A stretch of DNA of 64,000 nucleotides, taken from assembly GCA_028284195.1 (NCBI GenBank), contig JANQSE010000008.1:124001-188000 (forward strand). Reading direction: 5' to 3'. This document shows positions 26,853-51,730 of this stretch, piece by piece. Within the stretch, counting starts at the first letter, position 1; every line of letters begins with the position of its first letter. The stretch comes from Balneola sp. (GTDB taxonomy: Bacteria; Bacteroidota; Rhodothermia; Balneolales; Balneolaceae). The position numbers and the translations under genes were made by a program. The notes under the pieces are model-generated. The model had not been told where the DNA came from and ran no database searches. It saw nothing but the letters and a program-made list of their open reading frames with translations.

Positions 26853-26921
26853 CGATTTTAAATTTTTGATTGATGAATTATGAATTTTTCCTCATTCGTA
26901 ATTCAAAATTTAGCATTCCTT
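26851..26921. repeat. Heptamer inverted-repeat element between thiolase and FadN-like genes
   Basis: Left ATCGATT|TTAAATT|TTTGATT|GATGAAT|TATGAAT (26851-26885); right ATTCGTA|ATTCAAA|ATTTAGC|ATTCCTT (26894-26921); GAATTATGAAT pairs with ATTCGTAATTC. Confidence 0.7.
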
Positions 26922-42440: not shown

Positions 42441-42443
42441 CAA

Positions 42444-42520
42444 TAGTACTTAGTATCTAGATGTTAGATGTACCACAGCTTAAACAATTCCTGATACTAA
42501 GTACTAACATCTAAATACCG
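42444..42520. repeat. Heptamer inverted-repeat element without ORF, paaC-paaD intergenic
   Basis: Left TAGTACT|TAGTATC|TAGATGT|TAGATGT (42444-42471); right GATACTA|AGTACTA|ACATCTA|AATACCG (42493-42520). AGTACTTAGTATC (42445-42457) is a perfect 13-nt inverted match to GATACTAAGTACT (42493-42505). Confidence 0.85.
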
Positions 42521-42523
42521 TTA

Positions 42524-45038: not shown

Positions 45039-46208
45039 ATGAGTTTAGGTAAAGATGCAGTAGTAGGAATTATTGGTGCCGGTACCATGGGCACCGGAAT
45101 TGCTCAAATTGCAGCCACAAATGGATATACCGTTTATTTATATGATGCATACTCAGAACAACTCCCAAAAGCCAAAGCAGGGTTAGAAAAGATTCTTAAT
45201 CGCCAGGTTGAAAAAGGAAGAATGAGTCAGGATGAAGTTGATGGAATCCTTGGTCGTATTCATTTTGTAGATAACATCACAGATTTTGGTAAATGTGGGT
45301 TTGTGATTGAAGCAATCATCGAAAACATTGACATTAAAAAAGATGCCTTTCAACGATTAGAAGCCATTGTTTCTAAAGATTGCATCCTGGCTTCCAATAC
45401 CTCTTCCCTTTCTATCGCTTCTATTTCCTCGGCATTAAAAAAACCGGAACGGTTTCTGGGAGTACATTTTTTCAATCCGGCTCCGCTCATGAAGCTGGTT
45501 GAGATTATTCCCGGAGTTGCTACCAATGCTGAACTGGCTAACGAGACAAAAGAGTTTATTTCAGGTTGGGGGAAAATAACCGTGTTAGCCAGAGATACTC
45601 CGGGTTTCATAGTAAACAGAGTTGCACGACCTTTTTATTCTGAAGCACTTCGTATTCTTGAAGAAGGTGTAGCAGATGTCCCAACAATCGATTGGGCAAT
45701 GAAAGAACTTGGTGGATTCAGAATGGGACCTTTCGAACTCATGGATCTAATTGGCCATGATGTAAATTATGAAGTAACCAGTTCTGTATTCCGCGAGTTT
45801 TACTACGATCCTCGTTTCAAACCATCATTTACTCAAAAAAGATTAGTGGAAGCCAGATGGTTAGGCAGAAAATCCGGTAAAGGATTCTACAGCTATGGAG
45901 AAGACGCCAAGAACTCTGAACCAACAAAAGATGAAAAACTCGGCCAGGAAATCCTCCATCGCATTTTAGTAATGTTAATTAATGAAGCATTTGATGCTGT
46001 ATTTATGAACATCGGTTCTGCTGAAGACGTAGATCTTGCCATACAAAATGGCGTTAATTATCCCAAAGGACTACTGGCCTGGGCTGAGGAAATTGGATTA
46101 GAGATTGTACTGGAAAGAGTAAATACTTTGTATGACGAATATCAGGAAGACAGGTATCGGCCTAATCCATTATTGAAGAGAATGGTGAGAGAAGGGGCTT
46201 CTTTTTGA
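45039..46208 (+). CDS. paaH: 3-hydroxyacyl-CoA dehydrogenase PaaH-like
   Basis: VVGIIGAGTMGTGIAQIAATNGYTVYLYD, GVHFFNPAPLMKLVEIIPG; position in paa cluster. Confidence 0.9.
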   Translation: MSLGKDAVVGIIGAGTMGTGIAQIAATNGYTVYLYDAYSEQLPKAKAGLEKILNRQVEKGRMSQDEVDGILGRIHFVDNITDFGKCGFVIEAIIENIDIKKDAFQRLEAIVSKDCILASNTSSLSIASISSALKKPERFLGVHFFNPAPLMKLVEIIPGVATNAELANETKEFISGWGKITVLARDTPGFIVNRVARPFYSEALRILEEGVADVPTIDWAMKELGGFRMGPFELMDLIGHDVNYEVTSSVFREFYYDPRFKPSFTQKRLVEARWLGRKSGKGFYSYGEDAKNSEPTKDEKLGQEILHRILVMLINEAFDAVFMNIGSAEDVDLAIQNGVNYPKGLLAWAEEIGLEIVLERVNTLYDEYQEDRYRPNPLLKRMVREGASF

Positions 46209-46621
46209 TGAGCAAAACAGGTCAGGATATCATCTCCAAAATGATGGAAGAGGATAAATTCTCACAATGGATGGGCATTGATATTCTGGAATCTGAACCA
46301 GGTTACGTGAAGCTTTCTATGACCATCAGAGATGAAATGGTAAATGGTTTTGGGATATGTCATGGCGGAATCACTTTTTCTTTAGCAGACAGCGCACTGG
46401 CCTTTGCTTCAAATTCAAGAGGCTCTGTTTCCGTAGCTTTGGAAAACAATATCAATTATACCAAAAAGGTAGAAGTCGGTGATACTTTAATTGCTGAAAC
46501 GGAAGAAATTCAAAACGGAAGAACAATTGGGGTCTATAAAATCAGGATTACCAATCAGAATGAGGATCTAATAGCAGATTTTAGAGGAACGGTTTATCGT
46601 ACTGATAGACATAAGACCTGA
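46205..46621 (+). CDS. paaI: Hydroxyphenylacetyl-CoA thioesterase PaaI
   Basis: GFGICHGGITFSLADSALAFASNSRGSVSVALENNINYTKKVEVGDTL; 3' codons overlap heptamer repeats. Confidence 0.92.
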   Translation: MMSKTGQDIISKMMEEDKFSQWMGIDILESEPGYVKLSMTIRDEMVNGFGICHGGITFSLADSALAFASNSRGSVSVALENNINYTKKVEVGDTLIAETEEIQNGRTIGVYKIRITNQNEDLIADFRGTVYRTDRHKT

Positions 46622-47013
46622 GATATAAGATTTAAGACATGCACAATTACAAAAAATTAGATGTATGGAATAAAGCAGTTGATTTTGCAACTAATGTGTA
46701 TCAAATCACTAAGAATTTTCCAAAGGATGAACTTTACGGCCTTATTTCCCAATTAAGACGAGCTTCTGTTTCAATCAGCTCAAATATTGCTGAAGGAGCG
46801 GGTCGCAATTCTGACAAAGAATTCCGGCAATTCCTGAATATATCTTTTGGTTCGTGTTCTGAAATTGAAACACAACTAATCATTAGTCACAGATTGGGTT
46901 ATATTTCTGATGAAGATTTTTCGTCCCTTTCGGATGACGTTATCGAAATCCAAAAATCATTTATAAACTAATTCAGAAATTCTCTTAAGTCTTAAATCTT
47001 ACATCTCATGTCT
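46607..47013. mobile_element. Putative heptamer-inverted-repeat element carrying a four-helix-bundle ORF
   Basis: Left arm AGACATA|AGACCTG|AGATATA|AGATTTA|AGACATG (46607-46641); right arm reverse complement AGACATG|AGATGTA|AGATTTA|AGACTTA|AGAGAAT (47013-46979). Core arms 46620-46638 and 46989-47007 match 18/19 in inverted orientation. Mobility is inference. Confidence 0.7.
46639..46971 (+). CDS. Four-helix-bundle protein (23S rRNA-intervening-sequence protein/S23 family)
   Basis: YKKLDVWNKAVDFATNVYQITKNFPKDELYGLISQLRRASVSISSNIAEGAGRNSDKEFRQFLNISFGSCSEIETQLIISHRLGYI, the hallmark of the TIGR02436-type family. Confidence 0.95.
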   Translation: MHNYKKLDVWNKAVDFATNVYQITKNFPKDELYGLISQLRRASVSISSNIAEGAGRNSDKEFRQFLNISFGSCSEIETQLIISHRLGYISDEDFSSLSDDVIEIQKSFIN

Positions 47014-48222
47014 AAAAATGAAGCATATATCATAGATGGAATCAGAACTCCAATTGGAAAACTGAAAGGCTCTCTTTCATCAGTAAGAGTAGATGATTTG
47101 GCTGCTATTCCCATTAAAGAGTTGATAAAAAGAAATCCTGAGATTGATCCGACTGTTATTGAGGATGTAATCCTTGGTTGTGCTAATCAAGCTGGTGAGG
47201 ATAATAGAAATGTAGCCCGTATGGCTGCTTTACTGGCCGGGCTTCCTGTTTCTGTTCCCGGAGAAACTGTAAACCGGTTATGTGCTTCGGGGATGAGTGC
47301 TACTATCAAAGCATACCATGCAATTAAAGCCGGAGAAGGCGATCTGTTTATAACTGGTGGTGTAGAGCATATGACAAGAGGTCCAATTGTATTAGGGAAG
47401 GGAAACTCTCCTTGGTCTGGTACCAATGAAATGTACGACTCTACCTTTGGATGGAGATTCATAAATCCCAAGATGCATGAGATGTATGGAACAGATGGCA
47501 TGGGCATGACTGCCGAAAATGTGGTTGAAATGCATAACATCTCCCGTGAAGATCAGGATAAGTTTGCGGCATGGAGTCAGCAAAAGGCTGGAGCAGCGAG
47601 AGATTCCGGAAGGTTGGCAAAAGAAATTGTAAAAGTTGAAATTCCACAAAGAAAGGGTAACCTGATAATTTTCGAACATGATGAATTCATGCGCCCTGAT
47701 TCTACTCCTGAAATTCTTGGAAAACTTCGCCCCGCTTTTCGAAAAGATGGCTCGGTTACGGCCGGAAATGCATCAGGATTGAACGATGGCGCCGGAGCAT
47801 TATTAGTCGCTTCGGATGCAGCAGTCAAAAAATATAGACTGAAACCCAAATCAAGAATTGTGGCCTCAGCTGTTTCAGGGATTGAACCAAGAATTATGGG
47901 GCTTGGACCCGTTGAGGCTACACAAAAAGTAATGACTCGTGCCGGACTCACTTTAGACGATATGGATATCATCGAGTTGAACGAAGCTTTTGCAGGTCAA
48001 TCTCTGGGTGTTACCAGAATGCTTGGTTTAGAGGATAATGATTCACGATTAAACCCCAATGGAGGAGCTATTGCCATTGGCCACCCACTTGGAATGACCG
48101 GACAGCGATTGCTCCAAACCGCAACTATTGAACTTCACGAAAAAGAAAATGCTAAATATGCACTTTGTACTTTATGTGTGGGCGTAGGACAGGGTTTTGC
48201 GGTAATTCTGGAGAAAATTTAA
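47008..48222 (+). CDS. paaJ: Thiolase, 3-oxoadipyl-CoA/3-oxo-5,6-dehydrosuberyl-CoA thiolase PaaJ-like
   Basis: AYIIDGIRTPIGKLKGSLSSVRVDDLAAIPIKELI, NRLCASGMSATIKAYHAIKAGEGDLFITGGVEHMTRGP, LNPNGGAIAIGHPLGMTGQRLL. Confidence 0.92.
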   Translation: MSKNEAYIIDGIRTPIGKLKGSLSSVRVDDLAAIPIKELIKRNPEIDPTVIEDVILGCANQAGEDNRNVARMAALLAGLPVSVPGETVNRLCASGMSATIKAYHAIKAGEGDLFITGGVEHMTRGPIVLGKGNSPWSGTNEMYDSTFGWRFINPKMHEMYGTDGMGMTAENVVEMHNISREDQDKFAAWSQQKAGAARDSGRLAKEIVKVEIPQRKGNLIIFEHDEFMRPDSTPEILGKLRPAFRKDGSVTAGNASGLNDGAGALLVASDAAVKKYRLKPKSRIVASAVSGIEPRIMGLGPVEATQKVMTRAGLTLDDMDIIELNEAFAGQSLGVTRMLGLEDNDSRLNPNGGAIAIGHPLGMTGQRLLQTATIELHEKENAKYALCTLCVGVGQGFAVILEKI

Positions 48223-49662: not shown

Positions 49663-51698
49663 AAGTTCTTAGCTTCATAAAAGGCAAATGGCTAACCAAA
49701 GGAACTGAAACAGATCTGATCAGTGCAATTGATGGAAGCACTGTTGCCACTTTAGTTGATTCAGATATTGACTATAAATCAGCACTCGATTACGGAAGAA
49801 AAGTAGCCGGACCTGAATTGAGAAAATTGTCAATCCATCAAAGAGCCTTTAAGATCAAATTCTTGGCTGCTTACCTGATGGAACGTAAAGAAAAGTACTA
49901 TGCGCTTTCATCCCATACAGGTGCTACCAGAGGAGATTCCTGGATTGATATTGAAGGTGGCTTTGGTTCTATGTTTGTGCTTTCAAGTAAAGCAAGAAGA
50001 GAACTCTCTGATCTACCTTTCCATGTAGAAGGCGGAACCGAACGGTTATCCCGAGGCGGCTCTTTTGTTGGGCAGCATATTTGTGTTCCAAAACATGGCA
50101 TTGCTGTTCACATCAACGCATTCAATTTTCCGGTTTGGGGAATGGTAGAAAAATTAGCCCCTGCTATTATGGCTGGGCTTCCTTGTATAGTTAAACCCTC
50201 TCCTGTTGGTTCTTATCTGGCTTATGAAGTATTCAAAGATATTATTGAGTCTGAAATTCTTCCCGAAGGAAGCGTACAGTTCATCGCTGCTGATAAGCCC
50301 GGGAATCTGCTTGATCATCTGAACAGTCAGGATTCCGTTTCTTTCACCGGATCGGCTGCAACCGGAAAGAAATTGAAATCACATCCTAATATCGTTGCTA
50401 ACTCCGTCCAGTTTAATATGGAAGCAGATTCGTTGAACGCCTCTATCCTCGGACCTGATGTTACTCCTGATATGGAAGAATTCGAGTTATTCATCAAAGA
50501 AGTTGTTCAGGAAATGACTGTCAAAACCGGACAAAAATGTACTGCTATCCGGCGGACCATAATTCCAAGAGATTTGATAGATGACGTGGTAAATGCTCTT
50601 GGCAATGAACTCGATGCGATTACTATTGGAGATCCTACAAATAGGGAAAACAAAATGGGGCCGCTTGCCAGCAATTTACAAAGAGAACGTTTTGATGAAC
50701 AATATGAAAAACTGGAAGCAGGACTTCATGTTGTCTACTCAGGCGATATTGATACAAACGGAGCTTATACCTCTCCAAAAGTACTACTTGCACATCAGTC
50801 AGATGCAGGTGACGACCTTCATGTAATCGAAGCTTTTGGGCCATTAACTACACTAATACCTTATGATACGGTTGATGAAGCTATTCAGAATGCAAACAAA
50901 GCAGACGGATCATTAGTTTGTTCGTTATTCACTGCTGATGATGATATAGCCGCTGAAATCACTTTGGGATGTGCCCCATATCATGGGCGCTTTATGGTTA
51001 TCAATAAAAATTCAGCAGGTGAATCTACTGGTCATGGCTCCCCAATGCCACATATGGTGCATGGCGGTCCCGGGCGTGCAGGCGGCGGAGAAGAATTAGG
51101 AGGAGCGAGAGCTGTGTTACATAACATGCAACGAATCGCATTACAAGGCTCCCCTACTACACTCATGAATATTGTTCAGCAACATATAAAAGGTGCTGAG
51201 ACCAAAGAAGCACCAAAACATCCTTTTCAGATGTATTTTGAAGAATTGGAAGTGGGACAGTCTCTCCTGTCAGAAATCAGAAAAATTACTGATCAGGATG
51301 TGGAAGATTTCGCCAATTTATCAGGAGATCATTTTTATGCCCATACCGATCCTGACGCTGCATCACGATCTTTATTTGGCAAAATTGTAGCACATGGCTA
51401 CTTCGTATTATCGGCAGCAGCAGGCCAATTTGTTCATCCCGATGAAGGCCCGGTTCTGCTGAATTATGGACTTGAAAACCTTTCATTTTTGGCACCTGTT
51501 GCGCCCGGAGATACAATCCAAACTAAACTCATTGTTAAGAGAAAAACGGTACGCCAACAACGAGAAGGGGATCTCTTTCCATTCGGAGTTGTGTATTGGG
51601 ATGTGGAAGTAAAAAATCAGGAAGAGGTTTTGGTCGCGGAATATACTATTCTGACATTAGTAAAGCGTAGGAATAAGCTAGACATTGATATAATTTAA
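49659..51698 (+). CDS. paaZ: Bifunctional aldehyde dehydrogenase/oxepin-CoA hydrolase PaaZ
   Basis: N-terminal ALDH domain (VHINAFNFPVWGMVEKLAPA, TGQKCTAIRR) plus C-terminal MaoC hotdog (DFANLSGDHFYAHTDPDAA...FGKIVAHGYFVLS). Confidence 0.95.
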   Translation: MKVLSFIKGKWLTKGTETDLISAIDGSTVATLVDSDIDYKSALDYGRKVAGPELRKLSIHQRAFKIKFLAAYLMERKEKYYALSSHTGATRGDSWIDIEGGFGSMFVLSSKARRELSDLPFHVEGGTERLSRGGSFVGQHICVPKHGIAVHINAFNFPVWGMVEKLAPAIMAGLPCIVKPSPVGSYLAYEVFKDIIESEILPEGSVQFIAADKPGNLLDHLNSQDSVSFTGSAATGKKLKSHPNIVANSVQFNMEADSLNASILGPDVTPDMEEFELFIKEVVQEMTVKTGQKCTAIRRTIIPRDLIDDVVNALGNELDAITIGDPTNRENKMGPLASNLQRERFDEQYEKLEAGLHVVYSGDIDTNGAYTSPKVLLAHQSDAGDDLHVIEAFGPLTTLIPYDTVDEAIQNANKADGSLVCSLFTADDDIAAEITLGCAPYHGRFMVINKNSAGESTGHGSPMPHMVHGGPGRAGGGEELGGARAVLHNMQRIALQGSPTTLMNIVQQHIKGAETKEAPKHPFQMYFEELEVGQSLLSEIRKITDQDVEDFANLSGDHFYAHTDPDAASRSLFGKIVAHGYFVLSAAAGQFVHPDEGPVLLNYGLENLSFLAPVAPGDTIQTKLIVKRKTVRQQREGDLFPFGVVYWDVEVKNQEEVLVAEYTILTLVKRRNKLDIDII

Positions 51699-51730
51699 AA
51701 TTTTGAATTTTTAATTCTTAATTTTGAATT
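51696..51730. repeat. Five-unit heptamer array between paaZ and the downstream hydratase
   Basis: TAAAATT|TTGAATT|TTTAATT|CTTAATT|TTGAATT; first unit overlaps the paaZ stop codon. Confidence 0.7.

Follow-up and report, generated by a model that had tools for sequence, protein, structure and literature searches.

An IVS-like, probably selfish element bounded by inverted heptamer arrays in the paa operon of Balneola sp.

The stretch of DNA analysed here, hereafter the window, comprises 64,000 nucleotides of a Balneola genome (G000:C13:124001-188000, G000 being the window genome). On its forward strand paaI, encoding a hydroxyphenylacetyl-CoA thioesterase (46205..46621, TIGR02286 above cut-off), is followed by a reading frame of 110 amino acids (46639..46971) and by paaJ/pcaF, encoding a 3-oxoadipyl-CoA thiolase (47008..48222, TIGR02430 above cut-off). 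The small frame matched PF05635 with 144.1 bits (cut-off 33.8, E 2.1e-42) and TIGR02436 with 130.1 bits (cut-off 24, E 3.6e-38), so that its assignment to the 23S-IVP (S23) family of four-helix-bundle (4HB) proteins in a preliminary description, made from the sequence alone, is borne out by both curated cut-offs. The setting reported there, between two paa genes and without any rRNA, likewise stands.

The ORF is framed by two arrays of short words that read exactly as they had been written down. The left terminal array (46607..46641, forward strand, lag-7 score 10.8) consists of five imperfect AGAYNTR-type heptamers in phase with one another, namely AGACATA, AGACCTG, AGATATA, AGATTTA and AGACATG. 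The right terminal array (46979..47013, reverse strand, lag-7 score 13.0) is inverted, and its five heptamers read AGACATG, AGATGTA, AGATTTA, AGACTTA and AGAGAAT in reverse complement. A repeat search found the arms 46614-46638 and 46989-47013 to be 92% complementary over 25 nt, and direct reading confirmed the 18 of 19 complementary positions claimed for their cores (46620-46638 and 46989-47007). The proposal that a transcript could fold with the ORF in the loop agrees with the predicted RNA fold of 46590-47025, where a long-range stem encloses the whole ORF (MFE -109.6 kcal/mol, z -4.25). Both arrays overlap the host neighbours: the left one encodes the last four PaaI residues and the stop codon (46619-46621, within heptamer 2) and ends in the 4HB start codon, so that the 4HB ATG falls inside it, and the paaJ ATG (47008-47010) falls inside the last heptamer of the right one. 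At this single junction the outermost right word, read inward, matches CATGTCT, the native start of paaJ; in genus g4, again at the single paaI-paaJ junction, the element ends exactly between the native CAT and ATG. Among the noncoding arrays of the window, only period 7 is represented several times at the threshold used (4 versus 0 in the shuffle).

The solved relatives 2gsc (XCC0516, an S23-family protein of Xanthomonas) and 2rld contain five chains each, which we take to be pentamers. The window protein is 81% identical to the copy at the same site in another genome, G053, with a dN/dS of 0.10, and fifteen comparisons at orthologous sites gave values of 0.00-0.13. The 4HB ORF is under purifying selection, although selection of this strength is equally compatible with a protein that is useful to the host. 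The C-terminus of the window protein is shorter than that of the G053 copy of the same lineage, whose frame enters the right array, and the window copy may therefore be slightly degraded. No function has been established for the S23/IVP protein (PMC4990558). As a separate observation, TTTGTAAGGA ... GGTCTTAC is conserved in the DNA that separates the array from the ORF in many 4HB copies (L030-L033, L129, L130, L133), where it could serve as an inner hairpin or a control site.

Eight paa junctions were compared across eight Balneola genomes, and the comparison of paaI-paaJ was extended to 31 genomes. 4HB copies occupy four of the junctions (paaI-paaJ, paaJ-paaY, that between paaZ and the gene before it, and that between paaZ and the next hydratase gene), and hairpins of about 60-110 nt without an ORF are found at paaB-paaC, paaC-paaD and paaH-paaI. 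Within the window the paaC/paaD hairpin is 83 nt long (42441..42523, forward strand); it is built of the words AGTACTT/AGTATCT/AGATGTT, has a predicted RNA fold of -21.8 kcal/mol (z -4.2) and is replaced in relatives by other words or absent. It had not figured in the preliminary finding. The empty sites that the preliminary description had called for were found. Nine of the 31 paaI-paaJ junctions are empty, with a spacing of 18-41 nt, eleven hold a 4HB copy of one of two lineages, six hold ORF-less hairpins and five remain unclassified. Elsewhere in the operon emptiness takes the form of an intact ATGA overlap, in three genomes at paaB-paaC (G049, the most distant relative, among them) and in two genomes at the paaZ junction, or of a gene overlap at paaH-paaI and a 3-nt gap at paaJ-paaY, in two genomes each. 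Presence and absence vary at orthologous sites. Because a deletion would hardly recreate an ATGA overlap to the letter, gain explains the pattern more simply than loss does, most clearly at paaB-paaC.

Copies at any one junction are mostly inherited vertically. At paaI-paaJ the 4HB lineage of the window genome differs from that of its sister G043, and G053 carries the lineage of the window within a clade bearing the other one. The interleaving of the two lineages on the host tree, which was built from two short genes and has some weak forks, indicates that the occupant was exchanged while the flanking genes stayed. A transposition event was not caught in this comparison, which included only one genome per species, and target-site duplications could not be read because the relatives are too diverged and the arrays extend into neighbouring codons.

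Two further observations concern paaZ. A single period-7 array (AATTTTGAATTTTTAATTC) straddles the end of the gene in the window (51689-51730), and the same junction in G028, G037 and G043 holds a 4HB copy whose arrays are built of CAGAATT or TTCAGGAG. At the junction before paaZ the right array is apparently translated as an N-terminal extension of PaaZ in three loci (L130, L131, L132), where element DNA appears to be read into host proteins.

The window genome has five 4HB genes, and genomes of its family have from 0 to 16. The flanks of 136 distinct 4HB loci were surveyed for periods of 4 to 15 by a simple lag score against mononucleotide shuffles; orthologous copies among these loci are not independent. 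Arrays above the 99th shuffle percentile were found at period 7 in 43% of the left and 35% of the right flanks and at period 8 in 16% and 15%, respectively. Period 14 was enriched as a harmonic, the other periods from 4 to 15 were near background in these flanks, and control DNA from ORF starts and from far upstream did not exceed 3% at period 7 or 8. Among the 130 Balneolaceae copies with complete flanks, 37 were strong on both sides, and the periods of the two arms agreed in every one of them (26 at 7/7, 11 at 8/8). The words themselves vary widely among copies (AGAYNTA, AGTATTG, CAGCTAT, CAGAATT, GAGTCTT, AATTAAG, and 8-mers such as AGTTACAG or GTGTTATG in some), and the arms of one Balneolaceae copy align better with each other (mean 16.8) than arms swapped between copies (10.9).

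The same layout is found outside the Balneolaceae. For 69 loci, mostly of Bacteroidota and with one record each from Fibrobacter, Melioribacter, Chlorobiota, Omnitrophota and Atribacteria, period 7 was detected in 61% of left and 68% of right flanks, and own arms aligned at 17.7 compared to 11.0 for swapped arms. In each of the twelve plasmid-borne 4HB copies (11 from Cyanobacteria, 1 from Azospirillum) one or both flanks carry a period-7 array, and inverted pairing is strong in eight; no 4HB match was found in phage records. A lack of heptamer flanks in other family members had been named as a refutation, and many or most 4HB ORFs do carry inverted period-7 or period-8 arrays, so that inverted-array flanks are the rule for this protein family and not a peculiarity of the paa operon. 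On plasmids of Pseudanabaena galeata and Anabaena sp. 90 a 4HB element lies between cas6 and cas4 (L350, L357).

Arrays are also found without the gene. Noncoding period-7 arrays number 17 in a 400-kb sample of G037 and 5 in one of the window genome, with 0-1 in shuffles. Many of them form hairpins without an ORF, and some of these hairpins have 30-36 nt in common with the termini of 4HB copies. Hairpins that lack the ORF make up much of the element class. A near-identical pair of hairpins in G037 was considered as proof of recent transposition and rejected, since the flanks are duplicated too, and counts of the AGTATTG pattern were too sparse for use. Two individual arrays may be mentioned in their own right. 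One, in the window (26855-26917), is noncoding and of period 7 and resembles a self-contained hairpin with TGAATTA words; the other (L006, G000:C4:483947) consists of inverted AGAYNTA-type arrays without an ORF at an apparent arginine decarboxylase/spermidine synthase junction, and its right arm ends in an ATGTCT start like that of paaJ.

The anatomy, generality, specificity and turnover of the element are matters of direct observation. The interpretation we prefer, at a probability of roughly two in three, is that the locus is an IVS-like selfish element that ends in inverted short-tandem arrays and has ORF-less derivatives. A mobile or selfish IVS-like element within a protein-coding operon is what the preliminary description had inferred, and the empty sites together with the flanked family members support it. 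Such an element would consist of one small 4HB gene and two inverted arrays of some 3-5 imperfect words each, with a unit of 7 nt, or of 8 nt in some protein lineages, and would settle at intergenic junctions, often within operons. Its transcript could fold into a long stem whose loop holds the ORF, and copies that lack the ORF would persist as array hairpins of 60-110 nt, behaving like non-autonomous relatives.

The position in operon junctions, the strong predicted stem with the ORF in its loop (z -4.25) and the strong purifying selection on the ORF would equally be expected if hairpins and 4HB protein formed a host RNA-processing module, kept for the stability or RNase III-like cleavage of mRNA between cistrons, and the Coxiella IVS is indeed cleaved by RNase III in vitro (PMC4990558). 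We nevertheless regard such a module as unlikely. In a stem maintained at the RNA level an excess of G-U over A-C mismatches in the sense strand would be anticipated, but the arms contain 56 and 64, respectively (p 0.52). Without this asymmetry it does not look as if RNA pairing maintains the arms, and RNA-level maintenance of the stem was rejected. Furthermore, of the 100 copies flanked by co-directional genes 30 run antisense to these neighbours, by which strict targeting of co-directional operons was also rejected, and another 27 copies have neighbours that diverge or converge. In many relatives the corresponding junction lacks an element altogether, and the number of 4HB copies ranges from 1 to 16 inside one genus. 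For the selfish element DNA-level copying between the arms, or of host flank into an arm, fits the mismatches better; the arms would be kept alike by foldback or template-switch repair and not by selection on RNA pairing.

Arm homogenisation that looks DNA-level, and arms that reach into host bases such as ATGTCT, could also be accommodated if the arrays arose by themselves through polymerase slippage and palindrome correction, with the 4HB gene as a mere passenger. Heptameric tandem repeats are described as over-represented in many bacteria without an accepted cause, and slippage has already been proposed (PMC4692102). A passenger gene is, however, difficult to reconcile with the distribution of the arrays, which lie on both sides of 4HB genes and not of Y1 genes: no period-7 or period-8 arrays were found in the flanks of 20 Y1 (REP-type) transposase genes of the same genomes. 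Nor would slippage account for a unit length that goes with the protein. A tree of 61 proteins, no two of which reach 75% identity, required 8 changes between 7 and 8, compared to a mean of 15 and a minimum of 11 in 300 shuffles, from which it follows that unit length tracks protein lineage. TCAGNNN heptamer arrays are moreover present in 43 of the 47 family genomes that possess a 4HB gene and in 2 of the 11 that lack one, an association that is only suggestive because the 11 genomes are mostly small and related. Slippage alone is accordingly given still less credence than the RNA-processing module. A retro-mobile element, whose RNA would be excised and then reverse-transcribed by an enzyme of the host or of DGR type partnered by the Avd-like 4HB protein, is very improbable, for although the family is related to Avd (weak NF033474 match) and the RNA topology is suitable, RVT_1 is absent from the window genome and from 21 others with at least five 4HB copies, and reverse transcriptase and 4HB counts are uncorrelated given genome size (partial correlation -0.10), on which grounds reverse transcriptase was rejected as the mover.

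Returning to the selfish element, the 4HB protein is its only product and no recombinase is encoded by it. Movement would not need a host reverse transcriptase, and the cutting and joining enzyme has not been identified. A Y1 transposase was considered for this role: Y1 and 4HB counts have a partial correlation of 0.60 given genome size, uncorrected for phylogeny, but four genomes with at least five 4HB copies have no Y1 transposase. This absence and the array-less Y1 genes suggest that a role in trans is not needed, yet it is not excluded. The REP-type Y1 genes of the Balneolaceae are themselves mostly flanked by strong inverted repeats (L328-L347).

The arms differ from copy to copy, unlike the ends of ordinary transposons. 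The best indication that the spacing is read by something, most simply the protein, is its persistence while the words are replaced. With pentameric relatives, one unit per subunit is an attractive idea for which there are no binding data; array reading by the 4HB protein, like the mode of movement, is inferred, and nothing shows that it binds the arrays. Our preferred reading includes the inference that the 4HB protein, taken as pentameric like its two solved relatives, grips the array with one unit per subunit, and that this binding maintains and spreads the element. Array length has a median of 4.4 units (quartiles 3.4-5.0), a distribution compatible with, but not diagnostic of, five-unit arrays matched to a pentamer. 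In its widest form, the idea is of a new category of mobile element, in which the only protein, a pentameric four-helix ring, reads one 7- or 8-nt unit per subunit at inverted-array ends conserved in spacing and not in sequence, the unexplained abundance of heptamer repeats and hairpins in bacteria is largely its footprint and the IVS of rRNA are copies that landed in 23S. We consider this conceivable but put it forward only tentatively, with odds below even.

A published link between the S23 family and the repeats was not found in the open-licence literature, and an earlier description elsewhere remains possible. As far as searched, this is a very widespread, mobile-looking element class that has gone unrecognised. 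It may explain why 7-letter repeats are common in bacterial genomes, and it offers a reason for unexplained operon hairpins between genes that overlap in relatives. Since unit length, inverted layout and protein lineage covary across phyla, the puzzle of the heptamers is linked to that of S23/IVP function, and both become directly testable.

Among known systems the closest is the 23S rRNA IVS with an S23/IVP ORF, as in Coxiella and Leptospira, which shares the protein family, the terminal inverted-repeat stem around the ORF and a total length of about 400-430 nt. In Coxiella the stem likewise contains tandem heptamers, which adjoin the ORF start, three GACAGAT units and one degenerate heptamer lying just before the S23 ORF; the RNase III site is at the first repeat, and heptamer copy number differs among strains (PMC4990558). 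The Balneola element differs in that it sits in a protein-coding intergenic junction and not in a 23S rRNA gene, that its words vary by copy and that ORF-less hairpins coexist with it; excision has not been shown. By location it fails as a strict rRNA IVS, and it works like an IVS-type selfish element.

REP/REPIN sequences with their RAYT offer a parallel in a single-gene autonomous element and dispersed, intergenic, ORF-less palindromes. The protein here is a four-helix bundle (PF05635) and not an HUH/Y1 transposase, and the ends are 7- or 8-nt arrays, which the inverted repeats of local Y1 genes lack. Avd of the diversity-generating retroelements belongs to a related four-helix-bundle family, but the window ORF matches NF033474 with only 21 bits against a cut-off of 80, and a diversity-generating retroelement would not fit a window genome devoid of RVT_1.

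The known heptameric repeats (TAACTGA in Beggiatoaceae, GGGAATC in Xanthomonas, GGGGA(T/C)T in Nostoc and the heptanucleotides of Calothrix) resemble the arrays described here in being intergenic 7-nt tandem arrays. Xanthomonas has 70-75 convergent inverted GGGAATC pairs (PMC4692102), and TAACTGA repeats occur in sets of 2-6 units in Beggiatoaceae, Cyanobacteria and Bacteroidetes (PMC4679880). In the passages searched S23 is not mentioned in the former paper, nor 23S or a four-helix protein in the latter, and the repeats are described, unlike ours, without a link to any protein gene. Our observations suggest, for Xanthomonas only by analogy, that the known heptameric arrays are ends or derivatives of 4HB elements.
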